NCBI GenBank assembly: GCA_910575585.1
Contig: CAJTGF010000023.1
Location: forward strand, 1-64,000
From: Clostridiaceae bacterium
Lineage (GTDB): Bacteria; Bacillota; Clostridia; Lachnospirales; Lachnospiraceae
Length of the DNA stretch: 64,000 nt
Reading direction: 5' to 3'
The notes under the pieces were generated by a model. That model was given only the letters and a program-made list of their open reading frames with translations, ran no database searches and was not told the DNA's origin. The translations under genes were made by a program, and so were the position numbers. Every line of letters starts with the position of its first letter. Position 1 is the stretch's first letter. Positions 11,638 to 49,094 of this stretch are shown piece by piece.

Positions 11638-11712
11638 TCAGACCATCTCCTGTACTTTTATACTGATGCCATTTTACCAGATTTATCGCCGGAATTGTAA
11701 ATTATATGCAAT

Positions 11713-12081
11713 TTAATCGAAAGCGTCTTTACACAGGGCTACAAAATATTTCTTTTTCTCCAGTATTTCCTCCTGCCTGTCTTTGGAAAGCGTCTGGAAT
11801 ATCTCGTCATAGTCAAGCTCCGCAAGCGGCGTACCAAGCACAGGCGTTAAGACTTCATGCTCATACCATATCCGCCAGAGTTCCTCAAACAGTTCTTTAC
11901 TGTCTGAAAATGCCATCGCTGAATCAAAACCATCTCCCTCACTGAACCATTGCAGACGGACAAAGCCGAATCTCCCGGCATCCGCCACCATCACATCCGT
12001 CATCTCATACAGCTCCGCAAACGCATCCGCCACCTTCCGGCACTTCGCCTGCTGTTCTTCCGTAATAAATATTTCTGCCAT
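11713..12081 (-). CDS. Hypothetical ICE protein
   Basis: The start is placed at 12081 (MAEIFITEEQQAKCRKVADA), eight bases after AGGAGG. The longer frame to 12120 runs through the intergenic repeat. The 122-aa product is acidic, helical at the N-terminus and rich in aromatic residues (LWRIWYEHEVLTPVLGTPLA). No motif is recognised. It is the middle gene of the small accessory cluster between repA and pcfB, where Tn1549-like elements usually carry short uncharacterised ORFs. Confidence 0.6.
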   Translation of the reverse strand: MAEIFITEEQQAKCRKVADAFAELYEMTDVMVADAGRFGFVRLQWFSEGDGFDSAMAFSDSKELFEELWRIWYEHEVLTPVLGTPLAELDYDEIFQTLSKDRQEEILEKKKYFVALCKDAFD

Positions 12082-12100
12082 AGCGCACCCTCCTGATCCA

Positions 12101-12125
12101 CTTCTGGACAAAAAGTCCAAAAGTT
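12101..12125. repeat. 25-bp imperfect inverted repeat, copy 3 of 3
   Basis: Matches copies 1 and 2 over its full length. It overlaps the last codon of the 12124-12786 gene and lies 19 bases upstream of the 12081 start. Confidence 0.75.
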
Positions 12126-13902: not shown

Positions 13903-13919
13903 TCTGCCCGACCTCCTTC

Positions 13920-21523: not shown

Positions 21524-21556
21524 GGTATGCCTCCTTTCCTGGAGCTTTTGTGGTTT

Positions 21557-23167
21557 TTAGGTTTCTTTTTCTGTTGGGAATTGTAATTTTTCAATCACAC
21601 AGCTGTGTGTCTTTGTTTTTCTGTTATAGTCAACACCTACGAGCAGAAGATTTCCCTGATAATCTTTTAGAGCATTTACATACCCTCGTTCTTTAACCTG
21701 CGCAATAGCCCCCAAAACGCCTTTATCCCATTTCAGTTCAATTATTACCGCTGGTTTATCTCCATGAAGCCTGCGGGGAAGAAAACAGATATCCGCAAAA
21801 CCTTTGCCACTGGGAAATTCCCTGACAATGGTATAATATTCTCTGGCAAAATAAAACGCCAGGTGAATCGTACAGCTCAAAGAATTTTCATCATTGTATT
21901 GGAGAATGGATATTTCCTCATGGGCGCGGCTAATCCCTTCTGCCACAGCTTTGCCGTCCATGGCCCACAGCGATTCCAGAAGTTTTCTGGATGACTCCAC
22001 AGCATCCATCACCTCATGCCAATCCATAGTGCTGATAACATTCACATATTCCTGTGAAACCTCCCTGTTTGGAATCGTGACTGTACCATGGATACTGTTA
22101 TAAGTCAGGTATCCGAGATGCACTAAAAGCGTCAGAACATCATCTTTAGCGGCAAATGTTGTCATATCATTGCTGAATGTTCCGATATTAATCCTGACAC
22201 TTTCTCCTGCCAGCATCCGGACTACCTCATTTTTTAGTCCGTCAATGTCCATCTGAATATAAATTTTAAGAGCTTCATATGTTTCTGTCTGATTCCAATA
22301 GGTTCCAAATCTATGCCGGAGCATAGCTTCCACCACAGATTTGGGACTGTACATAGAATGGCGCACATCCTTATCTTCTCCATGAGTAATCAACTGATAC
22401 CCATCATACCATGCCTTTGCTTCCTCAAAACTCATCTTATAGGCTTCGCAGAGAATTTTTACCTCATTTTCCGTAAAGCCAAAGTCCTCCGCCAAATTGC
22501 CGGGATCTGCCATCGAATACTCTGTAAACATATTCAGCGCAGAATGAGTTCCATACTTTTTGATCGGCAAAATACCGGTCATATATGCCAGCGCCACATA
22601 ATCTTTATCTTTCAGCCAGGCCCGAAGGAAATCCAGATACTGTTTTTGAGCATTCTGATCCTGCTGATATTCTCTGAAAAGACAGTCCCATTCATCGATC
22701 AGTATAATAAACGGACTTTTTGTTCTGGAAAAGATATCTTTCATCACCTGGATCAGATTCGTCTCATCCCGAAAATCCACGTCGGCAAAACGCTCTTTTA
22801 AATCAAATATGATATATTTGCTGAACATGGATAACATATCCCCTACATTTCGGGATACGCTCAAAAATTCCTGCATATTGATCTTGATCACATCATATTG
22901 ATTTAGATACTTTCTATAAGATTCTGCCTTACTGACTGCCAGTTTATCAAAAAGGCTTGAAGAGTCTCCTTCACGCTCATAATATGCAGCCAGCATATCC
23001 GCAGCCATAGATTTTCCAAAGCGCCTTGGACGGCTGACACACACGTATTTCTGCCTTGTATCCACAACGGCGTTCATCTTCTCAATAAGCAGCGATTTAT
23101 CCACATAGATGCTGGAATTAATGCTTTCACGAAATCCTTTGCTGCCAGGGTTTAAGTAACTTCCCAT
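21557..23167 (-). CDS. AAA-ATPase-like / PD-(D/E)XK nuclease-like protein
   Basis: This 536-aa protein has an N-terminal AAA-ATPase-like domain (residues 1-290): YVDKSLLIEKMNAVVDTRQK, Walker A-like SRPRRFGKSMAAD (about 43-55) and Walker B-like FIILIDEWDCLFRE (about 154-167). The C-terminal PDDEXK_9 region carries GKGFADICFLPRR (about 466-478) and AVIIELKWDKG (about 485-495), which supply D and E-x-K. This family is abundant in gut anaerobes with many paralogues per genome. Its role is uncertain; toxin or defence and mobile-element roles have been suggested. It sits between anSME and rpiR without obvious functional link. Confidence 0.82.
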   Translation of the reverse strand: MGSYLNPGSKGFRESINSSIYVDKSLLIEKMNAVVDTRQKYVCVSRPRRFGKSMAADMLAAYYEREGDSSSLFDKLAVSKAESYRKYLNQYDVIKINMQEFLSVSRNVGDMLSMFSKYIIFDLKERFADVDFRDETNLIQVMKDIFSRTKSPFIILIDEWDCLFREYQQDQNAQKQYLDFLRAWLKDKDYVALAYMTGILPIKKYGTHSALNMFTEYSMADPGNLAEDFGFTENEVKILCEAYKMSFEEAKAWYDGYQLITHGEDKDVRHSMYSPKSVVEAMLRHRFGTYWNQTETYEALKIYIQMDIDGLKNEVVRMLAGESVRINIGTFSNDMTTFAAKDDVLTLLVHLGYLTYNSIHGTVTIPNREVSQEYVNVISTMDWHEVMDAVESSRKLLESLWAMDGKAVAEGISRAHEEISILQYNDENSLSCTIHLAFYFAREYYTIVREFPSGKGFADICFLPRRLHGDKPAVIIELKWDKGVLGAIAQVKERGYVNALKDYQGNLLLVGVDYNRKTKTHSCVIEKLQFPTEKET

Positions 23168-23285
23168 GTTCTCACCCCCTAATCTCTGTCAATGTTTCCC
23201 GGCAAAACCACATTGCCATCTCACCATAACTATATCCAAAAAAAAGAAAAATAGCAACCCGCTATTTTCCCTTATTTCAACGCTA

Positions 23286-23314
23286 TTGACAGGTTAAAGC
23301 ACCTTAAATATAAT
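23286..23314 (+). promoter_or_regulatory. Consensus sigma-A promoter of the rpiR gene
   Basis: TTGACA at 23286-23291, 17-base spacer, TATAAT at 23309-23314. Both hexamers are perfect consensus. It is 42 bases upstream of the ATG. Confidence 0.9.
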
Positions 23315-23355
23315 AATAACAGCTCTAATCCAATTTTAGAAAAGAGGACCTTTTT

Positions 23356-24153
23356 ATGAATATACTGGAGCGTATCCAATCCTGTCTGCCTGCCCTGACC
23401 AACAGCGAACGCAAAGTCGCCGAATATATCATCCTTGCCCCCATTGACGTTGTGCGCTTTCCATCCGAATATCTGGCCCAGAGATCCGGCGGTTCAAGAG
23501 GCGCCATCATCCGTCTGTGCCAAAAATTAGGATATAAAGGGTATTCCGAATTTAAATATGACATGTCAAAATATATGACTGCCCAATCCACTCCGGCGGC
23601 AGATCCGGCATCCCATACCTTTGACGGCCAGTCATTGGACTGTACCGGCGGCTGTACGGTGCTGGACCGCTACTGCCGGCACATTATGGAAATGTCCCAT
23701 CTGGCCGGCAGTTCCCAGCTAAAAGAACTGGCACGGGCTGTTCGTAAGTCCGCCAATGTCATTACGCTTGGCCAATACCATACCGGTTATTCTGCCATGC
23801 AGCTGGCGTTTCGTTTAAACCGCCACAGTATCAGCAGCCATTGCGTAACCGATCCAAGCATTATGGACAATTACGGATGCATTGTAACGAAAGAGGATAC
23901 GGCAGTCATCATGTCCATCAGCGGAAACCCTTCCTATATCCCGGTCTGCCAGGCTTTTAAAAAAAGGGACACAAAGGTTTTCCTTGTCACCATGACGGCA
24001 AAAACGCCTTTGGGCAAATATGTGGACTCCTTAATCTTGCTTCCCTGCATCACCCTTTCCACAAATACCTCTTTTCTGGATGACCAGCCTGTATTTTTTA
24101 TATTCACAGAACTTCTTCTGGAAGAGGTGCGGGCCCAAAGAGTTCTTCCGTGA
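23356..24153 (+). CDS. MurR/RpiR-family sugar-phosphate regulator
   Basis: This 265-aa protein has an N-terminal HTH_6 domain (residues 1-78: LPALTNSERKVAEYIILAPI, then SEYLAQRSGGSRGAIIRLCQ KLGYKGY) and a C-terminal SIS domain (about 115-245) with VITLGQYHTGYSAMQLAFRL and IMSISGNPSYIPVCQAFKKR. SIS domains of this family sense phosphosugars. AAAAGAGGACC precedes the ATG. It runs convergently to the sulfatase-EIIC-GH1-TSUP genes, ends 19 bases from the sulfatase stop, and is the obvious local regulator, responding perhaps to a 6-phospho-sugar. Confidence 0.9.
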   Translation: MNILERIQSCLPALTNSERKVAEYIILAPIDVVRFPSEYLAQRSGGSRGAIIRLCQKLGYKGYSEFKYDMSKYMTAQSTPAADPASHTFDGQSLDCTGGCTVLDRYCRHIMEMSHLAGSSQLKELARAVRKSANVITLGQYHTGYSAMQLAFRLNRHSISSHCVTDPSIMDNYGCIVTKEDTAVIMSISGNPSYIPVCQAFKKRDTKVFLVTMTAKTPLGKYVDSLILLPCITLSTNTSFLDDQPVFFIFTELLLEEVRAQRVLP

Positions 24154-24172
24154 ACGCATTGCCTCCGCCGTG

Positions 24173-25639
24173 TCACCCCCTTAGCCCCAGCCGGATAAAT
24201 TCCTCGTTCGGGGCTTCTATCCGGTCCATGGCTGCCATAAGTTTTCGGCACATAGCTTCCTTGATCTTATGGTCTTCAATGGGATGCTCCTGAACCGGGT
24301 CAGTTTCCATATCAAACAGCAGATCGCCGTACTTATAGGGTCTCAAATAAGTACCTGCAGGGTATTTCATAACCGGTATTCCGTTGGTAAACCGGCTTCC
24401 ATTTACCAGTTCGCCCTGTTTAAGGACCTTGGATGGCATAAAACCTCTCATCTGCGTGGGCATTAACGTAAGATTTACCAGCGGTTCATTTGCTTCATTG
24501 GCACACCCTTTCATAAACAGGTACCTGCCGTCATAAATATTTCCCTGCCCTCCATGTATGCCGAAAAGAATAGAATCATGAATGGGTTCATCCCCTTTTA
24601 AGATCGGCATCATGCTTTTCCCATCCATTTCATGGCTGCATTCCACTCCAAAATATTCCAACAGCGTGGGGGCAATATCGATGGTCTGGGCCAGCGCGTT
24701 TCTGCGTCCCCGTTCACATCCCGGATAACTGATAAAAAACGGAATATGCACCATCTCATCATACATGGGAGGATAATTTTTTCCCAGATAGCCCTTTTCT
24801 CCCAGAAAGAATCCATGATCTGTATTGACAATGATCAGGGTGTTCTCCCACATGTTATGTTCATCAAGAAAATCCAGGATGCGTCCCAGATGATAATCGC
24901 ACATCGTCAGCAACGCTCCATATTCCCGCCGAAGATTTTCCAAATCTTCCTCTGTGATCTTACTGTCAACAGGCTGATAGCAAGGCCAGTTATACGCTTC
25001 GCGGCAGTCCCGGCACTCATACATCCTGCGGTATTTCTCCGGCACATAAAACGGTTCATGAGGGTCAAAACATTCTATCTGCAAAAACCAATTATCTTCC
25101 GTTTCATATTGGCTCAAAAATTCCAGCCCTGCGTCAATGGTTCTGACGCTTGGCATCTTCGCCTCCTCCTCCATCCGGCTGCGGTTGGCCATATGCTGTT
25201 CCACAGAAAGCCCCTGCTTATTGTTCCTGTTTCCATTTAACTCCATATCCGCGGCTTTTCTTGGTACCCACCGGTCGCCTTCCTGCCCCCGAAATCCTTC
25301 CCAAGTGCAGTAACGATTGTGATAGGTACAGCCTCCGTCCTCAAAATAATGAGAATGGTCCGTTACCAAATGCGTATAGATCCCTTGACTGCTCATCCTC
25401 TCGATCACAGATTCGTCAAATGGCTCCAATGGCCCCCATGCTCTGTGGCAGTGATTGTATCTGCCTGTGTGCAGCTCCCTTCTGGCCGGCATACAAGGCA
25501 TGCTCCCTCCGTAAAATCGGTCAAATACCTGCGTCCGCTCTGCCAGCCGCCGGAAATTCGGGGTCTGTACCCACGAATTTCCATAAGGCTCCAAATACCT
25601 CCTCGTCAATGTGTCAAACATTATCATGACCGCTCTCAT
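24173..25639 (-). CDS. Cys-type sulfatase, predicted cytosolic
   Basis: This 488-aa alkaline-phosphatase-superfamily sulfatase has the maturation motif C49-M-P-A-R (C/S-x-P-x-R); Cys49 would become formylglycine by the anSME at 20399-21523. Other family features are the metal-binding D9 near the N-terminus, YETEDNWFLQIECFDPHEPF (about 170-190), and the NTDHGFFLGEKGYLGKNYPP ligand region (about 270-290). The protein starts directly MRAVMIMFDTLTRR with no signal peptide, so it should act inside the cell. It is the last gene of the TSUP-GH1-EIIC-sulfatase run. The substrate is probably a sulfated, PTS-imported glycoside. Confidence 0.92.
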   Translation of the reverse strand: MRAVMIMFDTLTRRYLEPYGNSWVQTPNFRRLAERTQVFDRFYGGSMPCMPARRELHTGRYNHCHRAWGPLEPFDESVIERMSSQGIYTHLVTDHSHYFEDGGCTYHNRYCTWEGFRGQEGDRWVPRKAADMELNGNRNNKQGLSVEQHMANRSRMEEEAKMPSVRTIDAGLEFLSQYETEDNWFLQIECFDPHEPFYVPEKYRRMYECRDCREAYNWPCYQPVDSKITEEDLENLRREYGALLTMCDYHLGRILDFLDEHNMWENTLIIVNTDHGFFLGEKGYLGKNYPPMYDEMVHIPFFISYPGCERGRRNALAQTIDIAPTLLEYFGVECSHEMDGKSMMPILKGDEPIHDSILFGIHGGQGNIYDGRYLFMKGCANEANEPLVNLTLMPTQMRGFMPSKVLKQGELVNGSRFTNGIPVMKYPAGTYLRPYKYGDLLFDMETDPVQEHPIEDHKIKEAMCRKLMAAMDRIEAPNEEFIRLGLRG

Positions 25640-25671
25640 AATCCTGATCCCTCCAAATCTGCTCTTGTCTT

Positions 25672-26928
25672 CTATTCCCCTGCCGATTCCTGATCCACCA
25701 GTTTTTTGTCATAAGCTTTGATAAACGGAAGATAGATCAGCACACAGACCGCAACAATAATACAGTAGGCCACGGCGGCTTTCCAGTCCAAAGTGGCGAA
25801 AAACATAGCCAAAGGTCCCGGCATAAAGGAAGGCGTGGCAATGAAGCATCTCCCCACAATATTCAGACTTTGCAAAAGATACCCGGCGCCGACGGCAAAG
25901 GAAAACGCTCCGATGTGGGGGATCAGCAGTTCCATATTAAAGATAAACGGCGTGCCAAATAAAATCGGTTCCGATATCATAAAGATGGACGGCACGATCC
26001 CCAGCCTTGATATGGATTTCAACTGGGCTGATTTGCACACCAGCAGCATAGCGATGGCCGCCGGCAGCATCCCAATCTGCCAGCTGATAAATCCCGTTGC
26101 CAGAACATGGGGCAGAGCCTGCCCTGCCTCATAAGCGGCCAGATTTTCTACCACATTGACAGCCATAACCGGCGACAGAACCGCCATTATGATTGAAGTT
26201 CCATGAACTCCGAAGAACCAAAGTACCCTGGACAACGCAAACATTACCACAATGGCAACCACATTTTCCGAAGCGCTTAACAAAGGCTTTAAAATGATGC
26301 CTACCAGCTGCGGCAGCATAAAACCAAATTGATCACACACCAAACGGATGGCGATACCCAGTACAAGCAAAACACAGGTGGAGATCAATGATTCAAAAGG
26401 CGCGGACACCATAGGCGGCACTGCCTCCGGAAGCTTGATCTTCGGTCCTTTCTTGTCCCACAATTTTAAAATCTCACAGAAAAATATCCCAACGAAAAAC
26501 GCGCTGAACAATCCCTGTGAACCCAGATAAGAAAAGTCCAAAGTCGTACGATTGTCTGCGGTCACCAGATTAACAGACAATATCAAGTAGATAACCAAAT
26601 TTATGATCACGGCGTTTTTTATATTAATATTGTTTTCCTCCGCCATGGTACACACTACTCCCAATAATGCCAACAGTCCATAAAGTCCCGTGGTCATCTG
26701 ATAAACAAGATTCAGCCACCCTGCATTGGCTTTGGCGAAAGCCATCCATCCTAAACCAATCCCGTTGGTGGTATCAGCCGGAAACGGCGGAGTCTTTAGA
26801 AGCGTTATAACGCCCGCAAAAATAGTAATGCCGATCATAGCCATTACTCCGCTTTGAATCGCTTTGACATATCTGTGATTGGATAAATCTGTTATCCTGC
26901 CAATAATCTTATCTGACTGCATACCCAT
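25672..26928 (-). CDS. PTS sugar transporter EIIC, lactose/cellobiose (CelB) family
   Basis: This 418-aa membrane protein has about ten hydrophobic segments and the family pattern: an N-terminal amphipathic HRYVKAIQSGVMAMIGITIF, GVHGTSIIMAVLSPVMAVNV (about 236-255), ISEPILFGTPFIFNMELLIP (about 318-337) and FMPGPLAMFFATLDW. EIIC moves the sugar, which is phosphorylated by EIIB on entry. No EIIA, EIIB or HPr is in the window, so these must be supplied elsewhere. AGGAGGCAGGACT precedes the ATG. It lies between the sulfatase and GH1 genes, implying import of the substrate as a phosphate ester. Confidence 0.9.
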   Translation of the reverse strand: MGMQSDKIIGRITDLSNHRYVKAIQSGVMAMIGITIFAGVITLLKTPPFPADTTNGIGLGWMAFAKANAGWLNLVYQMTTGLYGLLALLGVVCTMAEENNINIKNAVIINLVIYLILSVNLVTADNRTTLDFSYLGSQGLFSAFFVGIFFCEILKLWDKKGPKIKLPEAVPPMVSAPFESLISTCVLLVLGIAIRLVCDQFGFMLPQLVGIILKPLLSASENVVAIVVMFALSRVLWFFGVHGTSIIMAVLSPVMAVNVVENLAAYEAGQALPHVLATGFISWQIGMLPAAIAMLLVCKSAQLKSISRLGIVPSIFMISEPILFGTPFIFNMELLIPHIGAFSFAVGAGYLLQSLNIVGRCFIATPSFMPGPLAMFFATLDWKAAVAYCIIVAVCVLIYLPFIKAYDKKLVDQESAGE

Positions 26929-27012
26929 AGTCCTGCCTCCTGAACATCGTCATATTTTTATACCATCAACTCATTTGCGCATAATGTATTTGATATAATC
27001 ATCATAACGGCT

Positions 27013-27121
27013 TTTTGATCATTTGTCTATTTATTTTTGTTCATTTTGTTCATTTCGGCGCTTGTAATAGTTTTAGCTCTGATTTTGATCATTATTCTTT
27101 ATAATTTTGTTCAATTTGTCC
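27013..27121. promoter_or_regulatory. Repeated TGATCA-centred motifs upstream of the EIIC gene
   Basis: TTTTGATCATTTGTCT (27013-27028) and TTTTGATCATTATTCT (27083-27098) are 70 bases apart, about seven helical turns. Each is followed by TTTTGTTCA motifs (27037 onward and 27105 onward). They lie upstream of EIIC, between GH1 and EIIC. They are candidate operators for the RpiR regulator, with DNA looping possible. This is inference from repetition and spacing. Confidence 0.45.
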
Positions 27122-27151
27122 AAAAAAAAACGATACTTACCACCTAAAAAG

Positions 27152-27199
27152 AAAAATGCCGTCACGCTTATGTCCTATCCCTTGCGCAACGGCATTTTT
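27152..27199 (-). terminator. Terminator after the GH1 gene
   Basis: On the minus strand an 11-bp perfect stem (27199-27189 with 27162-27152, AAAAATGCCGT) ends in TTTTTC. It lies ten bases after the GH1 stop, so EIIC and sulfatase probably have their own promoter in 26929-27150. Confidence 0.8.
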
Positions 27200-27209
27200 C
27201 CGTCAATCC

Positions 27210-28730
<1,521 letters not shown>

Positions 28731-29916: not shown

Positions 29917-30066
29917 TCGGAGTCTCTTTGTGCCTGATTTTATGAGATGATATTTTTGTCAGATGCGCATAAATTTATGAGGCGTACGTGGAACGTACGT
30001 TGATTAACTTTATGCACATCTGGCGAAAAATCAGCCATAAAGGCAGGTGCAAGAGAGATTCCGGGA
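29917..30066 (+). ncRNA. 150-nt long hairpin upstream of the phosphorelay operon
   Basis: The two arms (about 29917-29990 and 29995-30066) pair almost continuously around a GGAA tip, with a perfect ACGTAC/GTACGT apex stem. Most deviations are G·U wobbles on the plus strand (roughly nine wobbles against two reverse-type changes), with a few single-base bulges. The structure ends 29 bases before the response-regulator ATG, and an AAAGGAGG ribosome site follows. It could be a cis-acting leader RNA, a free RNA or a miniature transposable element. No T-run follows, so it is not a simple terminator. Confidence 0.55.
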
Positions 30067-30095: not shown

Positions 30096-30458
30096 ATGCG
30101 CAAACGTATTTTAGTAGTGGATGATGATGAAATGAATTTGAAAAGGACAAGAATGATTCTGGAAAAGTACTACAATGTGCTTCTTGCAGAATCAGGGAGG
30201 GAGGCTCTTGAAAAGATCAAGGTTGAAAAAATTGACCTGATCCTTCTGGACATCGCGATGCCGAAGATGGATGGCCTGGAAACGTTTAAACGTATGAAAG
30301 ATTCCTCTGTGGATATTCCGGTTATCTTTCTGACCGCGTCCGGCTATGAAGATGATGTGCGGACTGCCATCAGCCTGGGGGCCATTAATTATCTGAAAAA
30401 ACCGTTTTTCCCGCTGGAACTGTTAAAACGAGTGGAATTGGGGCTTGAAAGTCAATGA
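30096..30458 (+). CDS. Single-domain response regulator (CheY-like receiver)
   Basis: This 120-aa protein is a bare receiver: acidic pocket VVDDDEMN (residues 7-14), phospho-acceptor Asp52 in LILLDIAMPKMDG, Thr in IFLTASGYED (about 80) and Lys in LKKPFFP (about 101). There is no output domain, so it acts as a phosphate shuttle or by protein contact. AAAGGAGGCTGCTGT precedes the ATG. Its stop overlaps the start of the next gene (ATGA at 30455-30458). It is the first gene of a three-gene phosphorelay operon. Confidence 0.95.
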   Translation: MRKRILVVDDDEMNLKRTRMILEKYYNVLLAESGREALEKIKVEKIDLILLDIAMPKMDGLETFKRMKDSSVDIPVIFLTASGYEDDVRTAISLGAINYLKKPFFPLELLKRVELGLESQ

Positions 30459-33400
30459 GAGAGAAAGAACAGACCAGTATACACCTGCTTCTGGCCAGTA
30501 TTGTCACCATGTTCGGCACAATACTGATTTTAACTATAGTAGCTTTGTCATGGGAACTGTGGATGGTTCCTGTTATCCTGATTGGCAACACGCTTATATG
30601 GTGCCTTCACATAGGAAGAGCTGGTTCAGAGACATTTTATGTAAACTTATGTGCCGGATTGCTGATGGTCGGATTTTTTTTCTTCGGAGTACACAGCATC
30701 ACTCTTTTTGACATACCAGCCGTAGCCTGTATGATGATACTCGTTTATTCCATGTTTGACAAAAAGCGGCTGTTGTACATGACAGCCGCCCTTTATGTGC
30801 TGGTGCTGCTGTATCACTTCTTTATCCTGCGCACCATCACCAGCGACATGGGCACGCAGAATATGATCCGCATGGGCCTGGGGATCACGGTTGTAGCCGG
30901 TTCCATGCTGATCTCAAGATTTCGGATCAACCGCAGATTGGAATCACGGGCGATCTATGACAACACTCTTGCGGAGTTGAAAAAATCCGAGCGGCAGAAC
31001 GCGGAATTTCTGTCCAATGTGTCCCATGAGATCCGGACTCCCATTAACATGGTGCTGGGGATCAGCGAAGTCATATTGGAAAAAAATATTTCCCCCGATA
31101 TCCGGGCAGACATGCAGTCTATAAAACTGGCGGGCAAGCGTCTTTCCAATCAGATCGTCAATATGCTTGATTATACGGAGATTATGGAAGGAACCCTGAT
31201 CCCGGCTAAAGAACCATATCGGATCATTTCCGTACTTAACGACCTGATCACCATGACCGCCATGCTGAGCGGCAAGCAGCAGCTGGAAATGGTATTTGAT
31301 CTGGACCCAAAGATCCCGGCGGTTCTTATCGGAGATGTAGAAAAAATCTCTCATGTTCTGAAGATCATTGTAGAAAACTCCATTAAATTTACGGAAGAAG
31401 GCGGCATTAACGTGTATATCCACTTCCGGCGGGAAAGCTATGGAGTTAATCTGATGATTGACATCTATGATACCGGAATCGGCATGACCGCTTCTCAGCT
31501 GACCCAGATGTGCGATGATTTTTACCAGGCAGACTCCGGAAGCCGCCGATTTGCGGGAGGGCTTGGGCTTGGCCTTCCCATTGCGCGGGGCCTGCTCCAC
31601 GCAATGGGCGGATTTATCCATTTTAGCAGCTCCGAACAGCAAGGTCTGCAGGTCCACATCACCATTCCCCAGGGAGTGGAAAAAGATACGCCGGCCATGA
31701 TCGTAACCGACCCAAAACAGCTTTGCATCGCATGTTACTTCCGTCCTGAAAAATACAACAGCGATGAAGTGAAACGATACTATGACAAAATGATCTATCA
31801 CATGATGGAGGGACTTAATCTTAACGGGTATCAGGCCCACAATTTTGAAGGTCTGGTGAAACTGCTGAATACCCGCCCTCTGACCCATGTATTTATCGCT
31901 CAGACAGAGTATGAGGAGAATCACTCCTATTATGAAGATCTGGCAAATAACCTTCAGGTGGTCATCATCGCGGACCGTGATTTTACCTTAAGCAGGCACA
32001 GTAAACTTTTAGTGATCCGCAAGCCGTTTTTCGCCCTCTCCGTGGTAAATCTGCTTAACGGCGAGGTACAAGAAAACGGATTTGGGGAAGCGCAGGCTGC
32101 GGGCCGCAAGCCTTTCTCCTGCGACAAAGTCCGGGTTCTTGCTGTCGATGATGAAGAGATGAACCTTGTGGTGGCCAAAGGTGTTCTGGGCAGCTACAAC
32201 ATACAGGTGGATACCTGCCTAAGCGGAAAGGAAGCGGTGGAGCGGTGTTCCACCACGGACTATGATATTATTTTCCTGGACCATATGATGCCTGGCTTTG
32301 ACGGCGTGGAAACCATGAGACAGATCCGTACCATTCAGGACGGAAAATATAAAGACCTTCCTATAATTGCGCTTACCGCCAACACCATCAGCGGCGCAAG
32401 GGAAATGTTCCGCAACGAAGGCTTTACGGAATTTATACCAAAACCAATTGAACGCCCTGTTCTGGAACGGGTGCTGCGCAAGGTGCTGCCGGAGGATCAG
32501 ATGCAGTATGAAGAGATGCCCGTAACCCCGGAGGAAGCTCCTTTGCCGGACCATGCCGGTTCTCCAAAGCCATCTGCTCAAACGGAACCTGAGGCAAAAA
32601 ATTATATCCGTAAAAAAGGTTCCTCAAAAAAAGCCGCCCGCAAAAAGGGCTCGCCTATGAATATCTTTTCGAAACGCGGCAGATCACAGCAGCGGGTGTC
32701 AGAAGTTGACATACCAAAAGCCACTGCTCCGGAATACGACCTGCCCGAAACCGGCCAAACCAATGATAATGTTTCAAAACGCGGCAGATCACAGCAGCGC
32801 ATCATGGAGATCGATATACCAAGAGCCACTGCTCCGGAGTACGAGCTGCCGGAAACTCCCATACCCAATGATCCCATCCCAAAAGACAGGATCTCAAAGG
32901 GCAGTATTTTGAAATACCGCATCCCGGTATACAGTATTCCAAGAGGCAGAGACTTTAAGGACTCGGTGGGAAGATACCGCAAAACGGAACGAGATCTGCT
33001 GGAGGATACTCTGACAGAATACGGATCCGCAGATCATAACGATCCACAAAAAGGCGGCTATACGGATCTCGACGGCTTAAGCGAAGACCCGGCAAATAAT
33101 GATCCAGCGGATCAAAACATATGGGACGCAGACCTGAAGGAAGGCGCTTACGCAGACTTTGATAAGTCGCAGGAACCGGATGAAGACGATCTTACGGATT
33201 ACGATGCCCCGGACGTTGCTCCGGAAGAAGACGGACTATGGGATGATGATACCCCGGACGACAGCTCCGGACTTTCCCTGTCCGCCGATGCCTCCCAGCC
33301 TTTCGCCCCTCTCTCCCGCGTAGGCATAAACGTACAGCTTGGGCTGGATTACTGCTGCGGGGAAGACGGATTTTACATGGAAATGCTCGACATGTTCTAT

Positions 33401-33646
33401 ACCCAGGCCGAGAAAAAGAAAAGCGAGATCGTTGCTCTGTACGACGCGGCTGATTGGGACGAATACACGGTCAAAGTCCATGCGTTAAAAAGTACATCCA
33501 TGACCATCGGCGCGGAAGGTCTGGCAGAACAGGCCAGGCTGTTGGAGCAGGCCGGAAAGACCAAAGATATCGACTACATCCGGCACAACCATGACGCGCT
33601 GCTGCGCCTATACGATGAGATCTGCAAAACCATTGCGGAATTATAA
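30455..33646 (+). CDS. Membrane hybrid histidine kinase with receiver and Hpt domains
   Basis: In this 1063-aa protein the order is: six hydrophobic segments (about 10-175) with little extracellular domain; HisKA with His191 in NVSHEIRTP; HATPase with DTGIGMT and GGLGLGLPIARG; a degenerate receiver-like domain without the acceptor (about 400-530); a true receiver with Asp609 in IFLDHMMPGFDG; a long Lys/Pro/acidic linker (about 690-950) with two copies of a 35-residue repeat; and a C-terminal Hpt domain with His1009 in VHALKSTSMTIGAE. This allows a full His-Asp-His relay, with 30096-30458 as a possible end acceptor. The signal is unknown. Confidence 0.92.
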   Translation: MREKEQTSIHLLLASIVTMFGTILILTIVALSWELWMVPVILIGNTLIWCLHIGRAGSETFYVNLCAGLLMVGFFFFGVHSITLFDIPAVACMMILVYSMFDKKRLLYMTAALYVLVLLYHFFILRTITSDMGTQNMIRMGLGITVVAGSMLISRFRINRRLESRAIYDNTLAELKKSERQNAEFLSNVSHEIRTPINMVLGISEVILEKNISPDIRADMQSIKLAGKRLSNQIVNMLDYTEIMEGTLIPAKEPYRIISVLNDLITMTAMLSGKQQLEMVFDLDPKIPAVLIGDVEKISHVLKIIVENSIKFTEEGGINVYIHFRRESYGVNLMIDIYDTGIGMTASQLTQMCDDFYQADSGSRRFAGGLGLGLPIARGLLHAMGGFIHFSSSEQQGLQVHITIPQGVEKDTPAMIVTDPKQLCIACYFRPEKYNSDEVKRYYDKMIYHMMEGLNLNGYQAHNFEGLVKLLNTRPLTHVFIAQTEYEENHSYYEDLANNLQVVIIADRDFTLSRHSKLLVIRKPFFALSVVNLLNGEVQENGFGEAQAAGRKPFSCDKVRVLAVDDEEMNLVVAKGVLGSYNIQVDTCLSGKEAVERCSTTDYDIIFLDHMMPGFDGVETMRQIRTIQDGKYKDLPIIALTANTISGAREMFRNEGFTEFIPKPIERPVLERVLRKVLPEDQMQYEEMPVTPEEAPLPDHAGSPKPSAQTEPEAKNYIRKKGSSKKAARKKGSPMNIFSKRGRSQQRVSEVDIPKATAPEYDLPETGQTNDNVSKRGRSQQRIMEIDIPRATAPEYELPETPIPNDPIPKDRISKGSILKYRIPVYSIPRGRDFKDSVGRYRKTERDLLEDTLTEYGSADHNDPQKGGYTDLDGLSEDPANNDPADQNIWDADLKEGAYADFDKSQEPDEDDLTDYDAPDVAPEEDGLWDDDTPDDSSGLSLSADASQPFAPLSRVGINVQLGLDYCCGEDGFYMEMLDMFYTQAEKKKSEIVALYDAADWDEYTVKVHALKSTSMTIGAEGLAEQARLLEQAGKTKDIDYIRHNHDALLRLYDEICKTIAEL
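32672..32881 (+). repeat. Two 105-bp tandem repeats in the kinase linker
   Basis: Two copies beginning AAACGCGGCAGATCACAGCA at 32672 and 32777 encode 35-residue units (KRGRSQQR, then (V/I)xE(V/I)DIP(K/R)ATAPEY, LPET). A degraded third unit may follow. The exact period keeps the frame, so the linker length can change by recombination. Confidence 0.75.
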
Positions 33647-33671: not shown

Positions 33672-36374
33672 GTGTTGAAAAAGTGGTTTGAACTTATCTA
33701 TGACCATAAGATCAATCTGCGGGAACGAATGTTCCGCGTAGTCACAGGTATCTGTATGATCGCATTGACGATCATACTGCCTATGGGAAGGACTCCTTTG
33801 AATCTGCTGATCCTGGCTGTAAGCCTTGGGCTTATATCCCTTATTGTAAAGATCAGTATTCGAAAAGAATGCGTCCATGCAGGAGCCACCGCCATTACCG
33901 TCCTGCTTCTGGTGCTTTTCCCCATAAGCTTTTTTACGGCAGGCGGTTTTTACAGCGGTATGCCGGAATGGTTTGTGCTCTGCTTTATTTACATCAGCCT
34001 GACTCTGGAAGGACGGCGGAAAGGCTTTTTTTTCCTGCTTTGTACGGCGGAGACTCTGCTGTGTTACTATATGTCCTTTTATTATCCGCAGTATATGGCG
34101 CAGAACACCCAGGCCAACTCCTTCTTTGATTCCGCCTTTTCTGTTGTGCTGGTGGGAATTCTGACCAGTGTGCTGCTGCTGTTCCTCACTAAGCTTTACG
34201 AACAGGAGAACGAGCTTTCCAAACAGCAGAAAAAGGAGATTGAGGAGTTAAACAAAGCGGAAAATCATTTCTTTTCCAGCATGAGCCATGAGATCCGAAC
34301 GCCTATCAATACCATCATCGGATTAAATGAGATCATCCTGCGCAAAACGGATATTCCCGATGATGTGATCGAAAACGCAAGAAACATCCAAAGCGCCAGC
34401 AAAATACTGCTTACGCTTATCAATGATATCCTGGATCTGTCCAAGATCAAATCCGGAAAAATGGAGATCATTAACGTTTCCTACGAAACAGGCGCCCTTT
34501 TTTCCGAGATCGTCAATATGATCTGGATCAAGGCAAAGGAAAAAGGGCTGGAGTTCCGTCTCCATGTAGACTCCTCCATACCAAGCATGCTCTGCGGGGA
34601 TGAGGTCCGCATCAAACAGATCCTCATCAACCTTTTGAATAACGCGGTAAAATACACACGCGAAGGCTCCATCACTCTTTCCGTGCGGTGTGAGCGGCTG
34701 ACTCTGAACAGAGTCCGGGTCTGGTATACCGTCCGTGATACGGGCCAAGGTGTAAAAAAAGAAAATATCCCCTATATTTTCAATGCGTTTAAGCGGGTAA
34801 ATGAAGAGCAAAACCGCCATATTGAGGGAACGGGGCTGGGTCTTAGCATCGTACACCAGTTAGTGGAGCTGATGGGCGGAGAGATCAGCGTTGACAGCGT
34901 TTACACAAAAGGTTCTACGTTCCTTGTGATGCTGGAACAGGATATTGTGGACGATAAGGAGTTGGGGACCTTTACGCTGACCTCCCGGGTAAGGTCCCGG
35001 GACGGGAAAGCCTACAAGCAGAGTTTTGAAGCGCCGGATGCCCATATTCTGGTGGTGGATGACAATGAGATGAATCTGATGGTGGTGAAAAAGCTGCTTT
35101 CAGAGACAAAGATCCAGCTGGATACGGCATTAAGCGCCGCCGAATGTCTAAAGATGACCCAAAACCAGCATTATGACGCCATCCTGATGGATCACCTGAT
35201 GCCTGAGATGGACGGGATCCAATGTCTTCACGCCCTTCGGACACAGCCCGGCGGATTGTGCCAGGATGTTCCTGTGGTGGCGCTGACAGCCAACGCGGGA
35301 AGCGATAATCAGCTTCTTTACCGGAAAGAAGGATTCAGCGGCTATCTGGCCAAACCGGTCAGCGGCTCATTGCTGGAAGCCGCCGTGTTAAGTATCCTGC
35401 CAAAGGAACTGGTAAAGATCTACGAGGATCCCACCCAGTCAGAGATCGGAAAAGATATCCTGATCTTTGAAAAAGCCTTGCGGACATTTCTCGTCATTAC
35501 AACGGACAGTGTCTGTGACCTTCCGGAATCCTTGATAAATGAGTTCGGCATCCGGGTATGTCCTTACTATGTCTCCACAGACCATGGACGGTTTATGGAT
35601 GAGGTGGAACTGAAGGCGGATGAACTGCTTTCACACATAGCTCTAGGGAAAAACGGCACCTCCCAGCCTCCCAGTGTGGAAGACTATGAACATTTTTTTG
35701 CTCAGAGACTGACAGAGGCCCAGAACGTCATCCATATCACCATGGCAAAGCATACCAGCGGGGGATACGCCAACGCTATGGAAGCTGCCAAGTCCTTTGA
35801 AAACGTAACGGTGCTGGATTCCGGCCATCTGTCCAGCAGCATGGGCCTGGTAGTCCTTTATGCGGCTTCTATGGCAGAAAACCATGCTACAAAGACGGAT
35901 ATTGTCAATGCCGTAAAGAAATTGAGGCGTTATATTTCTTCCGCGTTTATCATTGACAGCACCCATATGATGTGTCAGGCAGGCCATATCCCCAAACATG
36001 TTCAGGTGGTTTGCGATGCCCTGCTTCTGCATCCCATTATTGCCCTCCGCAACAGTAAGATGGTGGTTGACGGTGTGGAGATGGGTAATTTTGCCCGCAT
36101 TGCCAGACGTTATGTTCGAAAGGTGCTTCTTAACACCAGGAACATTGACCGCCGCGTACTGTTCATTACCTATGCGGGCATGGACTCCAAAAAGCTTAAG
36201 TATATCCAGAATCTGGTACAGCAGTATTGTCCTTTTGAGCGGGTGTATTTACAGAAAGCTTCTTCTGCCATTGCCAGCAACTGCGGCCCTGGTTCTTTTG
36301 GTCTTCTGTTTATGAAGAAGACGGATCTGGCTCTGTCTTTATCCGACGCGTCGAAGCCGGATACGCCGGTCTGA
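33672..36374 (+). CDS. Hybrid histidine kinase fused to a DegV (fatty-acid-binding) domain
   Basis: The start is placed at GTG 33672, ten bases after AGGAGG; an ATG at 33591 overlaps the previous gene by 56 bases and lacks a ribosome site. The 900-aa product has six membrane segments (about 20-180), HisKA with His206 in MSHEIRTPINTII, HATPase (DTGQGVKKENI, GTGLGLSIVHQL), a receiver with Asp507 in ILMDHLMPEMDG, then from about residue 606 to 890 a complete DegV fold: FLVITTDSVCDLPESL, the lipid-binding TSQPPS motif, HTSGGYANAM, VLDSGHLSSSMGL and a final GPGSFGLLF. DegV/FakB proteins bind fatty acids. Fusion to a kinase suggests lipid-linked signalling. Confidence 0.92.
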   Translation: MLKKWFELIYDHKINLRERMFRVVTGICMIALTIILPMGRTPLNLLILAVSLGLISLIVKISIRKECVHAGATAITVLLLVLFPISFFTAGGFYSGMPEWFVLCFIYISLTLEGRRKGFFFLLCTAETLLCYYMSFYYPQYMAQNTQANSFFDSAFSVVLVGILTSVLLLFLTKLYEQENELSKQQKKEIEELNKAENHFFSSMSHEIRTPINTIIGLNEIILRKTDIPDDVIENARNIQSASKILLTLINDILDLSKIKSGKMEIINVSYETGALFSEIVNMIWIKAKEKGLEFRLHVDSSIPSMLCGDEVRIKQILINLLNNAVKYTREGSITLSVRCERLTLNRVRVWYTVRDTGQGVKKENIPYIFNAFKRVNEEQNRHIEGTGLGLSIVHQLVELMGGEISVDSVYTKGSTFLVMLEQDIVDDKELGTFTLTSRVRSRDGKAYKQSFEAPDAHILVVDDNEMNLMVVKKLLSETKIQLDTALSAAECLKMTQNQHYDAILMDHLMPEMDGIQCLHALRTQPGGLCQDVPVVALTANAGSDNQLLYRKEGFSGYLAKPVSGSLLEAAVLSILPKELVKIYEDPTQSEIGKDILIFEKALRTFLVITTDSVCDLPESLINEFGIRVCPYYVSTDHGRFMDEVELKADELLSHIALGKNGTSQPPSVEDYEHFFAQRLTEAQNVIHITMAKHTSGGYANAMEAAKSFENVTVLDSGHLSSSMGLVVLYAASMAENHATKTDIVNAVKKLRRYISSAFIIDSTHMMCQAGHIPKHVQVVCDALLLHPIIALRNSKMVVDGVEMGNFARIARRYVRKVLLNTRNIDRRVLFITYAGMDSKKLKYIQNLVQQYCPFERVYLQKASSAIASNCGPGSFGLLFMKKTDLALSLSDASKPDTPV

Positions 36375-42169: not shown

Positions 42170-45564
<3,395 letters not shown>

Positions 45565-45596
45565 TTTTTCTTCCTCCAATCCATTTAATTATCAAC

Positions 45597-47693
45597 TTAT
45601 TTTACGCCAAACAGTAAATCACCATAAGTCGGAAATGGCCAGTATTTCTTTGCCGTTATCGCCTCTGCCTCATCGCAGGCAGCTCTTAATTCTCCCATTT
45701 TTCCTAAAACAGCGTCCCGAATCATATAGGACTCTGTCTCAACATCTTCCGTATCCTGAAGTTTCATCACCGCTTCTTCCAATTCATCGGTCTTAACCGC
45801 AATCTGTTCTTCCAGTATTACAAGTTTTTTCACAAGCCTCGTCTCATAACTGCATGAAATTGATTCATCGACCGCCTTTTTTGCCGCCGCTGTATTTGCA
45901 AGCTCCAATACATACGCGCTTACTGCCGGAGCAATCTCTGTCTTGGCCATATCGATCATGGTGTTAGCCTCAATCAGAACGGTCTTACAATAGTTTTCCA
46001 GCATAATTTCACATCTGGACTTCAGCTCCGCTTCTGAAAAAACTTTGTGAGACGTCAGCATCCGTACGTTTTTTTCATCCAGCAGATGGGGCATGCAATC
46101 CGGTGTTGTACGATAGTTCAGAAGCCCTCTCTTTTCCACAGCTTCCTTAATCCACGTGTCGTCATAACCATTCCCGTTGAAAATAACATGTTTATGATCT
46201 TTGATGGTTTTGCGAATCATTTCGTGCAGTACATCTTCAAAATTCTCTGCTTTTTCCAGTCTGTCCGCATAGATTTTTAAACTTTCCGCCACCGCGCTGT
46301 TCAGCATGATATTGGCGCAGGCAATGCTGTTGGAAGAACCAAGCATACGGAATTCAAATTTGTTTCCGGTAAACGCAAAGGGCGATGTGCGGTTGCGGTC
46401 CGTGGTATCGCGGTTAAACTTTGGAAGTACATCTACGCCCAGCTTCATCTGTGTTTTTTCGGTTCCCGCATAGGGAGTACCGGTTTCAATCGCTTCCAGT
46501 ACCCCATTTAATTCTTCTCCAAGGAAGATAGAGATGACTGCCGGAGGCGCTTCGTTTGCCCCAAGTCTGTGATCATTTCCTGCTGTCGCCACAGAAAGAC
46601 GAAGCAGATCCTGATAATCGTCCACGGCTTTGATAACCGCGCATAGGAATAATAAAAACTGCGCGTTTTCATACGGCGTTTCGCCCGGCGACAACAGATT
46701 CACGCCTCCGTCCGCGGTTAATGACCAGTTGTTATGCTTTCCGCTTCCGTTTACTCCGGCAAACGGTTTTTCATGAAGCAGGCACACAAGCCCATGTTTT
46801 GCCGCTACCTTCTGCATAATTTCCATTGTCAGCTGGTTATGGTCTGTCGCAATGTTTGTTGTTGTATAGATAGGGGCAAGCTCATGCTGTGCCGGGGCAA
46901 CTTCGTTATGCTCTGTCTTTGCCAGAATGCCCAGCTTCCAGAGTTCCTCATTGAGTTCTTCCATATAAGCGGCAACCCTCGGCTTGATCACTCCGAAATA
47001 ATGATCGTCCATCTCCTGTCCCTTCGGCGGCTTCGCGCCAAAAAGAGTACGTCCCGTAAATCGAAGATCCCTCCTTTGTTCATACATTTCTTTTGTAATA
47101 AGAAAATATTCCTGTTCCGGCCCTACGGATGTGCGGACGCATTTCACATCGTCATTGCCGAACAGATGAAGGATACGGATTGCCTGCTTATTTAACGCTT
47201 CCATAGAACGGAGCAGCGGCGTTTTCTTATCCAGCGCTTCTCCGCCATAAGAGCAGAACGCGGTAGGAATACACAAGGTATTGCCCTTGATGAACGCATA
47301 GGATGTAGGATCCCATGCCGTGTATCCCCGCGCTTCAAAAGTAGCCCGAAGTCCGCCTGAGGGAAACGACGACGCATCCGGTTCTCCTTTTATCAGCTCC
47401 TTTCCGGAAAACTCCATAATCACACCGCCGTCGGGAGACGGAGAAATAAAACCGTCGTGCTTTTCTGCCGTGACGCCGGTAAGGGGCTGGAACCAATGGG
47501 TATAGTGGGTAGCGCCATGATCCACCGCCCAGTCTTTCATAGCCGCCGCTACCGCGTTTGCTACGCCAATATCAAGCTTTGCGCCTTCATCAATCGTCTT
47601 TCTCAAAGACCGATAAACCTTTGCCGATAAATTTGCTTTCATCACTCTGTCATCAAATACTTTACATCCAAAAAAATCCGATACATTCTTCAT
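45597..47693 (-). CDS. glnN: Glutamine synthetase type III
   Basis: The start is set at ATG 47693 ([20 protein letters not shown]) behind GGAAGGAGCAGG. A frame reaching 47801 translates the leader hairpin and is rejected. The 698-aa product has the GSIII signature [17 protein letters not shown] (about 220), the catalytic core [20 protein letters not shown] (about 315-335), [20 protein letters not shown] and [25 protein letters not shown] forms a dodecamer making glutamine from glutamate and ammonia. It is the first gene of the leftward operon, with a promoter at 47793-47821 and an attenuator in its leader. Confidence 0.97.
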
Positions 47694-47714
47694 AATCCTG
47701 CTCCTTCCAAATTT

Positions 47715-47786
47715 AAAAATAAAAAAGACAAGGAAGACTTTCATGGCGCTTATCCCCGCGCCGCAAAAGACTCCCTTGCCTTTACG
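47715..47786 (-). promoter_or_regulatory. glnN leader attenuator with ANTAR-type hexaloop hairpin
   Basis: The transcript should start near 47786. Hairpin P1 is six base pairs (47783-47778 with 47771-47766; one G·U) closing hexaloop AAGGGA, which has the A1 and G4 expected of ANTAR targets. The same 18 bases (47783-47766) instead pair with 47741-47724 to make a long terminator stem with an inner GGCGC/GCGCC stem (47762-47758 with 47749-47745), followed by a T-rich run (to about 47715). P1 and terminator are mutually exclusive. The inner GC stem has an 8-base loop, so a canonical second hexaloop is not evident. Confidence 0.7.
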
Positions 47787-47792
47787 TGTTGG

Positions 47793-47821
47793 ATGATACA
47801 CCCTTAAAAATCATTTGTCAA
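47793..47821 (-). promoter_or_regulatory. glnN operon promoter
   Basis: On the minus strand: TTGACA (47821-47816), 17-base spacer, TATCAT (47798-47793). Start of transcription expected near 47786, at the foot of the leader hairpin. Confidence 0.8.
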
Positions 47822-47999: not shown

Positions 48000-49094
48000 A
48001 TGAAAATTGAGGGTCAAGTAAGAATCCCCTCCGGATGCGCGATCTCAGCCGCAATTTCCAAAGACGGAAATAAGATGTCCGGTGAAATGATCATAAATTC
48101 CATAAAACCTATGCATGACCGGTCCAACGGATTAGGCGGTGGTTTTGCCGGTTATGGCATTTATCCGGAATATAAAGAATTTTATGCGTTACATATGTTT
48201 TTTGATTCCCGCGAAACGCGAAAGGAATGCGAAGCTTTCTTAAAGGAGCGCTTTGAAATAGTCCATTCAGAAGTCATTCCAACCCGAAAGATTCCGGCAA
48301 TCACAGCTGAACCGATCATATGGAGATATTTTGCCGCGCCGTTAAAATCTGTGCTTGTATCTTTACAATTAGAAGAAAAAGAGTTTGTCGCAAAAACAGT
48401 TATGAAGATCAACGCCGAAATGCCCGGTGCTTACGTCTTTTCCAGCGGCAAAAACATGGGAGCGTTCAAAGCGGTCGGTTTTCCGGAGGATGTAGGCGTC
48501 TTTTATAAATTAGAAGAATATGAAGGATATTCCTGGACGGCACATGGACGTTATCCGACAAACACTCCCGGCTGGTGGGGAGGCGCGCATCCGTTTACAC
48601 TGCTTGATTATTCCGTCGTGCATAACGGAGAAATTTCCTCCTATGACGCAAACCGACGATTTATTGAAATGTTTGGCTATAAATGTACCCTCCAGACCGA
48701 TACGGAAGTTATTACCTACATTATGGATTATCTGCTCCGCGTACAGGAACTTACGCTCGGTGAAACCGCAAGTGTAATTGCCGCTCCGTTCTGGAGTACC
48801 ATTGCGGCAAAAACAGATTTGAACGCCCAAAAGAAACATACTTACCTTAGAACTATGTTTCCAAGCCTTCTGATTACCGGCCCGTTCTCTATCGTTTTTG
48901 GATTTGAGGGCGGATTGATGGCGCTGAATGATCGTCTGAAGCTTCGTTCCATGGTTGTTGGAGAAAAGGATGACAAAATATTCATTGCCAGTGAAGAAGC
49001 CGCTATCCGAAGCATGGAACCAAATGCGGAAAATATATGGTCGCCCGCAGGCGGTGAGCCTGTGATCGTTAACGTAAAGGAAGGTGCGTTTTAA
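48000..49094 (+). CDS. Glutamate synthase, glutaminase piece (GltB1-like)
   Basis: This 364-aa class II (Ntn) amidotransferase has Cys13 in IPSGCAISAAIS as the likely nucleophile, exposed after removal of a 12-residue propeptide. Other family blocks are GLGGGFAGYGIYPEYKEFYA (about 41-60), TAHGRYPTNTPGWWGGAHPF (about 178-197) and VVHNGEISSYDANRRF (about 203-218). It corresponds to the N-terminal domain of the large glutamate synthase subunit, encoded alone as in archaea and many clostridia. It releases ammonia from glutamine for GltB2. The stop overlaps the next start. AAAGGAAGGT precedes the ATG, and the promoter and attenuator lie upstream. Confidence 0.9.
   Translation: MKIEGQVRIPSGCAISAAISKDGNKMSGEMIINSIKPMHDRSNGLGGGFAGYGIYPEYKEFYALHMFFDSRETRKECEAFLKERFEIVHSEVIPTRKIPAITAEPIIWRYFAAPLKSVLVSLQLEEKEFVAKTVMKINAEMPGAYVFSSGKNMGAFKAVGFPEDVGVFYKLEEYEGYSWTAHGRYPTNTPGWWGGAHPFTLLDYSVVHNGEISSYDANRRFIEMFGYKCTLQTDTEVITYIMDYLLRVQELTLGETASVIAAPFWSTIAAKTDLNAQKKHTYLRTMFPSLLITGPFSIVFGFEGGLMALNDRLKLRSMVVGEKDDKIFIASEEAAIRSMEPNAENIWSPAGGEPVIVNVKEGAF

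Follow-up and report, generated by a model that had tools for sequence, protein, structure and literature searches.

A membrane hybrid histidine kinase that ends in a complete DegV domain is encoded at positions 33672..36374, plus strand, of the window, by which we mean the whole 64,000-nucleotide stretch analysed here (contig CAJTGF010000023.1 of assembly GCA_910575585.1, a Lachnospiraceae genome that is probably from the gut). The fusion is genuine and conserved. Its gene is the third of a same-strand cassette, after a response regulator and a second hybrid kinase that carries an Hpt domain, and in its DegV domain residues on which the FakB fatty-acid carriers depend are replaced. Sequence comparisons suggest that this DegV domain is most likely a recruited ligand sensor of a phosphorelay.

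The fused kinase and its conservation

The reading frame is unbroken from GTG 33672 to the stop codon at 36374 and encodes 900 residues, ordered as membrane part, histidine kinase (HK), receiver (Rec) and DegV domain, hence HK-Rec-DegV. The frame is also open from an ATG at 33591, upstream of the GTG; an AGGAGG sequence stands about 10 nt 5' of the GTG, and in an alignment of 40 sequences (window and 39 relatives) a methionine begins the consensus at about the GTG-start residue. After an N-terminal membrane region (residues 1–185, 33672..34226), Pfam delimits HisKA (residues 198–262, 34263..34457), HATPase_c (309–422, 34596..34937), the receiver Response_reg (459–572, 35046..35387) and DegV (608–882, 35493..36317), all on the plus strand. 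The phospho-acceptors of a hybrid histidine kinase, His206 and Asp507, are present together with the HATPase, and these two residues as well as Asp463/464 are invariant in 81/81 sequences (the window and 80 relatives). The DegV domain scored 138.8 bits with Pfam PF02645 (cut-off 27; profile positions 3–279 of 280; E 2.9e-40) and 153.8 bits with NCBIfam TIGR00762 (cut-off 99.7).

This is the domain order that an earlier, sequence-only reading of the protein had proposed. Its DegV motifs were likewise present in the translation (TSQPPS, the DS..SSSMGL block as DSGHLSSSMGL, and the GPGSFGLLF end), and the gap between receiver and DegV, given there as about 40 residues, is about 35 by the Pfam borders. 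As for its six membrane segments, four are strong in a hydropathy scan (20–38, 45–63, 70–88 and 155–173), and the other two, weaker, are plausible by eye only. No known sensor family exceeded the curated Pfam cut-off in the membrane parts of the kinases, in searches extended to E 5.

A protein scan of an 84,980-species collection found 192 relatives, of which the best 80 were kept. All 80 encode, each on its own contig, an unbroken reading frame of 882–975 residues with membrane part, kinase, receiver and DegV. The DegV part has a mean identity to the window of 74% over 277 residues, with a gap in 0/80 relatives, and its codons differ from those of the window far more often at third positions (0.53) than at second positions (0.12), a pattern which indicates purifying selection. 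The records of the relatives are assigned to Lachnospiraceae, Oscillospiraceae, Clostridia and others; judging from sample names, many may come from mouse-gut samples or strains.

The occurrence of the fusion was also measured with a profile (A1) built from 32 fused DegV domains. In the family of the window, 75 of 397 sampled genomes had a match at E ≤ 1e-50, and in 69, by a count of listed rows, the frame around the match was open for at least 500 residues. A class-wide sample gave a match in a frame of at least 700 residues in 9/391 genomes (threshold 1e-40); in a tenth, G035, the frame had 580 codons and the kinase domain was not found. In a phylum-wide sample (threshold 1e-50), matches in such long frames were found in 3/398 genomes, all in the window's own family, and nine other matches lay in frames of 286–329 residues.

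That the fusion might be a sequencing or assembly artefact was considered by the sequence-only reading, which named a frameshift, a misassembly or absence of the fusion in all relatives as grounds for abandoning it. Because 80/80 kept relatives have the full-length frame on their own contigs, chance or sequencing error is excluded as its source, and the 69 family genomes tell against it as well. The artefact reading was rejected; we give it practically no chance of being correct.

Residues and relationships of the DegV domain

In FakB1 of Staphylococcus aureus, the carboxylate of the fatty acid is held by a network of Thr62, Ser95, Ser171 and His270, and Arg173 and Arg205 are called completely conserved in FakB (PMC8892158, in excerpts). 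The Fak reaction depends on Arg173, and binding to FakA and the membrane on Arg205 (excerpts of PMC8892158 and PMC9136124). The mutant FakB1(R173A) is reportedly stable and exchanges fatty acid normally although it is dead in the Fak assay (PMC9136124, same excerpts), so a domain that has lost Arg173 may still bind its ligand.

In the window, Arg173, Arg205 and His270 are replaced by His772, Met804 and Asn870. How general this is was measured on an alignment of 122 DegV domains, 107 of them signalling DegVs and 15 comparators: six sister free DegVs, four other free DegVs with the histidine, the divergent free DegVs L002 and L003 of the window's genome, and three solved proteins. The trio Arg173/Arg205/His270 is intact in none of the 107 signalling domains, against 12 of the 15 comparators. 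Position 270 is Asn in 99/107 (two His, five other residues, one cut by a contig end) and His in 13/15 comparators, with Tyr in L002 and Gln in L003. Arginine is kept at position 205 in 2/107 versus 13/15, and at position 173 in 46/107 versus 15/15. Since the trio is intact in 0/107, a signalling DegV domain is unlikely to feed a fatty-acid kinase. The known role of DegV/FakB proteins, handing fatty acid to such a kinase, is thus not borne out for this domain, and on its residues a FakB function was set aside as very improbable.

Several pocket positions are constant, or nearly so, in the window's close family of 81 members. Asn870 and Ser664 are present in 81/81 and Ser696, at the Ser95 position, in 79/81; the Arg173 position is Arg in 38/81 and the Arg205 position in 0/81. 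Thr62 aligns with the invariant Ser664 by MAFFT and hhalign, or with the variable residue 663 by phmmer. Position 171 is Ala or Ser in 80/81 (Ala in the window), and is mixed across the wider group.

A quick maximum-likelihood tree of the 122 domains places the 107 signalling DegVs in one group (SH-like approximate likelihood ratio test, SH-aLRT, 99; stem 0.51). With midpoint rooting, this group stands next to the six free His-type DegVs. Free DegVs encoded beside an HK-Rec-Hpt kinase branch near its base, where several forks are left open.

As the wider set had been gathered with a profile of fused DegVs, a census was made of every PF02645 DegV in 12 genomes of the family, plus a 13th. It took in 53 free-standing DegVs with their surroundings, including L001–L004 of the window's genome; one gave no gene call. 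Asn270 occurs in 0/52 (one of them a fragment). The 51 full-length proteins have Arg173 in 51 cases, Arg205 in 44, His270 in 38 and the whole trio in 37, and 4/52 have a kinase-like gene no more than two genes away, whichever the strand. Three free DegVs with Asn270 in the census genomes (L219, L221 and L226) all follow an HK-Rec-Hpt gene. The census also found a fused protein, L313, missed by the search at E ≤ 1e-50, which follows HK-Rec-Hpt as usual; it has Tyr at position 270, so Asn270 is common rather than universal. The signature of a mostly Asn residue in place of His270, joined to loss of Arg205, separates most signalling DegVs from metabolic ones in sequence data.

The cassette, its neighbours and its spread

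The first cassette gene (30096..30458, plus strand) encodes a single-domain, CheY-like response regulator of 120 residues (Response_reg, 1.4e-30). Its 3' end overlaps by 4 bp the gene of the partner kinase (30455..33646, plus strand; 1063 residues), which consists of a hydrophobic N-terminus, HisKA, HATPase, receiver, a variable linker and Hpt, the four domains being identified by Pfam. The Hpt domain (residues 976–1041, 33380..33577; PF01627, 8.6e-08) has the motif HALKS with His1009. Hpt and terminal receiver are thus located in one operon with HK-Rec-DegV, as expected of phosphorelay genes. A degenerate receiver between the HATPase and the receiver of the partner was an impression by eye with no support in Pfam, and was dropped. 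The sequence-only reading had kept to the fused protein, and made no mention of the partner kinase, of the regulator or of the cyclic di-GMP (c-di-GMP) enzymes found near it in relatives.

Upstream genes could be counted in 77 of the 80 kept relatives, as three contigs end too soon. HK-Rec-Hpt lies upstream in 77/77, and the response regulator adjoins it in 76/77, with a regulator match missing only in L019 (Schaedlerella arabinosiphila), where both kinases are present; L018 (Sporofaciens musculi) has the lone-receiver type, with a regulator of 120 residues. The overlap of regulator and kinase is 4 bp in 57/59 and 1 bp in 2/59 of the pairs called by a first pass. Among partner kinases, the window's included, HxLK[GS] occurs within the last 140 residues in 78/78, and the H box is found in 78/78, 73 by a first pattern and five as SHEFRTP. 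Neighbours outside the three genes are mostly unshared, only one other gene cluster having more than five members. In L027 (9098–14455) and L052 (9880–14754), a second tandem pair, cluster c10 and then HK-Rec-DegV, follows the cassette. L154 has two HK-Rec-DegV genes side by side, with a diacylglycerol-kinase-like gene before their HK-Rec-Hpt partner. L052 also has, at 2886–3806 and directly before the cassette regulator, a free DegV of the His type that falls in the sister group of the signalling DegVs.

For the wider family, 97 stretches were annotated with hidden Markov models (HMMs) built in this analysis; one (L234) gave no DegV call, and six (L237–L242) fall in the close group of the window and partly repeat the 80 relatives. 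Thirty proteins were also scanned with Pfam and four with NCBIfam. The commonest layout is HK-Rec-Hpt followed by HK-Rec-DegV. In other loci, HK-Rec precedes HK-Rec-DegV-Hpt (18 genes) or DegV-Hpt (L150, L151), or HK-Rec-Hpt is directly followed by a free DegV (L203, L219, L221, L226; L165, with a split gene). DegV stands at the N-terminus of the kinase in L147, L173 and L216, and on a kinase-like HATPase protein near GGDEF proteins in L225 (by Pfam) and L228 (by our HMMs). A sodium:alanine symporter gene follows the HK-Rec-DegV-Hpt gene in L159 (8257–9780), and open reading frames of about 507 residues occur near this gene in several loci of the same subgroup.

Neighbours were counted for 81 wider loci, after 10 of 91 signalling DegV genes with less than 2.5 kb of upstream DNA had been set aside. 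A kinase gene lies immediately upstream on the same strand in 77/81. As to the other four, a regulator-Hpt protein intervenes in L148, the membrane part was called as a separate reading frame in L161, and L225 and L228 have no close same-strand gene upstream. Among the 77 pairs, Hpt is present in exactly one of the two kinases in 72 (the partner in 52, the DegV protein in 20), in both in 0 and in neither in five: L153 and L173, at contig ends, L154, a second tandem copy, L165, a split gene, and L185, where the next gene carries it. One Hpt per kinase pair suggests a single relay, with an Hpt and a regulator that the two kinases feed or drain in common.

In 41/81 loci the DegV gene has a GGDEF or HD-GYP gene no more than two genes away. 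Counting non-kinase genes, these domains occur in 44 of 247 at that distance versus 9 of 318 beyond it (odds ratio 7.4, p 1e-9, for loci that are related and genes that are not independent). HD_5, GGDEF, MCP and CheW were confirmed by Pfam in example loci, and aligned examples show the GGDEF motifs and the residues of HD and GYP. MCP or CheW genes are nearby in 8/81 loci, hinting at a link to chemotaxis. The stretches concerned are L205 (10571–12489), by Pfam and just upstream of the kinase pair, and, by similarity search, L201, L204, L211, L212, L214, L215 and L223. None of these kinds of partner gene was seen in 16/81.

The best matches of the window's regulator outside the close group are receivers of Rec-Rec-HD-GYP and Rec-HD-GYP proteins of the wider loci, with top scores of 88 to 79 bits; these are per-domain scores, as whole-protein scores are inflated for proteins with two receivers. 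Elsewhere in the window's genome, GGDEF has 11 matches and HD_5 has four.

The spread of the cassette was examined with RpoB in 13 chosen genomes; CarB was dropped as a yardstick owing to paralogues and missing matches. Fusions of L046 (Anaerotruncus) and L047 (Oscillibacter), both Oscillospiraceae, and of L048 (Acutalibacter, Acutalibacteraceae) share 75%, 74% and 76% identity with the window, with RpoB identities, over the longest segments, of 70%, 65% and 66%. L083 (Parablautia, Lachnospiraceae) has a fusion identity of 73%; its RpoB identity, like that of L006, L018, L019 and L025, is 83–85%, and loci with equally near RpoB share more of the fusion (L006 83%, L018 78%, L019 78%). Because the sensor kinase is better kept than RpoB across families, these comparisons favour horizontal transfer of the cassette. 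Plasmids or phages as carriers were set aside: the plasmid search gave no match at 1e-30, and the phage collection gave nine matches, all below 60% identity (best 32%) and all in unannotated records.

Just upstream of the cassette lies a palindromic element of 106 bp with 37-nt arms (29940–30045; hairpin 29953–30029; fold z −7.1 for 29940–30050). It has no Rfam match. The genome holds 75 matches to it if a site counts in both orientations, and 39 forward matches besides the element itself at 88–92% identity (40 scored of 85 candidates). As the hairpin belongs to this dispersed repeat, it is not specific to the cassette, and a conserved regulatory hairpin was rejected. Farther away, the genes at 20399–28715 (anaerobic sulfatase maturase, sulfatase, PTS IIC, 6-phospho-beta-glucosidase-like) suggest use of sulfated sugars; within them, 21557–23167 encodes a predicted AAA-ATPase with a weak PD-(D/E)XK nuclease domain. 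An ammonium transporter fused to a PII domain adjoins glutamine synthetase III (43807–47801), and a glutamate synthase gene lies at 49094–50599. A serine recombinase and a RepA_N-type replication gene (6198–13938) suggest an integrated mobile element.

A putative sensor relay, its rivals and known systems

We consider it fairly probable that the cassette is one multistep phosphorelay, and that its DegV domain is a former fatty-acid carrier turned into a ligand-sensing regulatory module. The two membrane hybrid kinases would share one Hpt and, with the receiver protein, form a single relay. The ligand of DegV, a lipid or an acyl compound, would be bound in the cytosol or drawn from the membrane beside the kinase, and occupancy of DegV, sensed by docking on kinase or receiver, would shift the kinase/phosphatase balance. 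Phosphate would then reach the response regulator by the route His-Asp-His(Hpt)-Asp. The regulator or a neighbour would make or break c-di-GMP in about half of the wider set, and some cassettes stand beside chemotaxis genes; the lone-receiver regulator of the window would have to act on another protein. A sensor that docks is preferred to a linear helix switch or an output domain because DegV occurs at the C-terminus, at the N-terminus or as a separate protein. The idea that the kinase senses bound acyl chains, put forward from the sequence alone, fits best, the ligand itself being putative.

Several observations weigh against a sensor relay of this kind. The position of DegV after the receiver, the commonest layout, also suits an output domain. 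Ser95 is kept as Ser in only 66/107 signalling DegVs, and pockets may differ between subfamilies; two of these DegVs keep His270, six have neither Asn nor His there (one being contig-cut), and the Tyr of the fused L313, from below the search cut-off, adds to them. Forty of the 81 wider loci have neither a GGDEF nor an HD-GYP gene at a distance of up to two genes, and in the window the regulator is a lone receiver with no c-di-GMP domain by Pfam. The profile of fused DegVs that gathered the wider set favours its own kind. Lastly, what DegV binds, which way control runs and what the window's regulator finally acts on are inferred.

The same layout could mean that phosphorylation of the receiver controls lipid uptake or release by DegV, so that the kinase governs lipid traffic. 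DegV directly follows a receiver in 61 of 96 classified genes, the usual arrangement of a response-regulator output, and 18 further genes have HK-Rec-DegV-Hpt. Control of acyl loading by phosphorylation, the other idea of the sequence-only reading, is accordingly possible. However, delivery to FakA is unlikely once its docking and catalytic residues are lost, the N-terminal, Hpt-preceding and directly following free DegVs (those of L147, L173 and L216; L150 and L151; L203, L219, L221 and L226) have no receiver before them, and enzyme-type outputs are already encoded nearby in the 41 loci with GGDEF or HD-GYP, so we hold an output role to be rather unlikely. It is also unlikely, in our judgement a little more so, that DegV binds no ligand at all and is a protein-protein adaptor docking the two kinases or the Hpt. 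The variation at carboxylate-network positions 95 and 171 in the wider group and the free movement of DegV between relay proteins would suit an adaptor, but a scaffold need not keep pocket residues, and the near-complete conservation of Ser664, Ser696 and Asn870 in the window's family argues against a pure one. Very improbable is a DegV that is still a FakB, loading fatty acid and passing it to FakA with the kinase as regulator. The window protein does have a complete DegV domain and its genome a FakA/YloV gene (638.7 bits), but the three replaced residues stand against it, and two free DegVs of the same genome that keep the trio (L001/L269 and L004/L299) are available for that task.

The gut is rich in fatty acids and related lipids, yet gut Clostridia are not known to have a dedicated intracellular lipid receptor of this kind. 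As a bolder and decidedly tentative extension of the sensor relay, gut Clostridia may carry a lipid-responsive phosphorelay family, a Gram-positive functional counterpart of the RpfC/RpfG system, which senses fatty acids, with another receptor. A carrier would have become an intracellular receptor by losing kinase-docking and catalytic residues, and the family would set c-di-GMP and motility according to fatty acids or other acyl lipids of host, diet or neighbours and spread between bacterial families as a cassette. If the sensor reading holds, a large set of proteins known by domain label only would become a signalling family with defined partners that can be tested, c-di-GMP behaviour in Lachnospiraceae would gain a candidate input, and the fused kinase may serve as an internal lipid sensor of the cell. 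It would also show clearly how a metabolic carrier can be recruited as a sensor once the residues that dock its enzyme are lost.

The sequence-only reading knew of DegV-containing multidomain annotations in gut Firmicutes but of no described function. This agrees with the open-access literature searched, subscription papers and preprints lying outside it, in which no description of a DegV-kinase fusion or such a relay was found among the matches listed; the DegV passages of PMC12688256, PMC3146951, PMC3533761 and PMC9385722 describe neither.

Among known proteins, FakB1 of the S. aureus FakB1/FakA pair shares with the window's fusion a complete DegV domain and, at the carboxylate site, the hydroxyl of Ser696 and, by the MAFFT and hhalign alignments, that of Ser664, both kept in the window's family. 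The window's domain differs in being fused to a hybrid kinase, in having His/Met/Asn at the trio positions, and in falling in a separate group of the tree. Kinases of the BarA/TorS/ArcB type have the same HisKA-HATPase-Rec core, and gave the best NCBIfam scores, far below cut-offs; the window kinase differs by its DegV C-terminus and by a membrane part without a Pfam family. SaeS is not known to have a DegV domain, and the likeness to SaeRS of S. aureus lies in a kinase system that depends on intracellular fatty acids, as proposed for the DegV relay. According to excerpts of PMC5539427, SaeRS is inhibited by free fatty acids, its activity depends on their intracellular pool, and the Fak enzyme affects it indirectly by lowering that pool.

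RpfC and RpfG, of the diffusible signal factor system of Xanthomonas, have the layouts HK-Rec-Hpt and Rec-HD-GYP. By layout, descent aside, they resemble those relatives that pair a membrane HK-Rec-Hpt with Rec-HD-GYP, for example L155 and L156; the window does not have this pair, its regulator being a lone receiver, and the cassette differs by having a further hybrid kinase, the one that ends in DegV. RpfC has a fatty acid as its signal, which activates this histidine kinase and is bound through a short N-terminal sensor region (PMC5391125, in excerpts). RpfC/RpfG would be the nearest working analogue of the DegV-kinase relay; we class the system with the hybrid-kinase phosphorelays, apart from both FakB and RpfC/RpfG.

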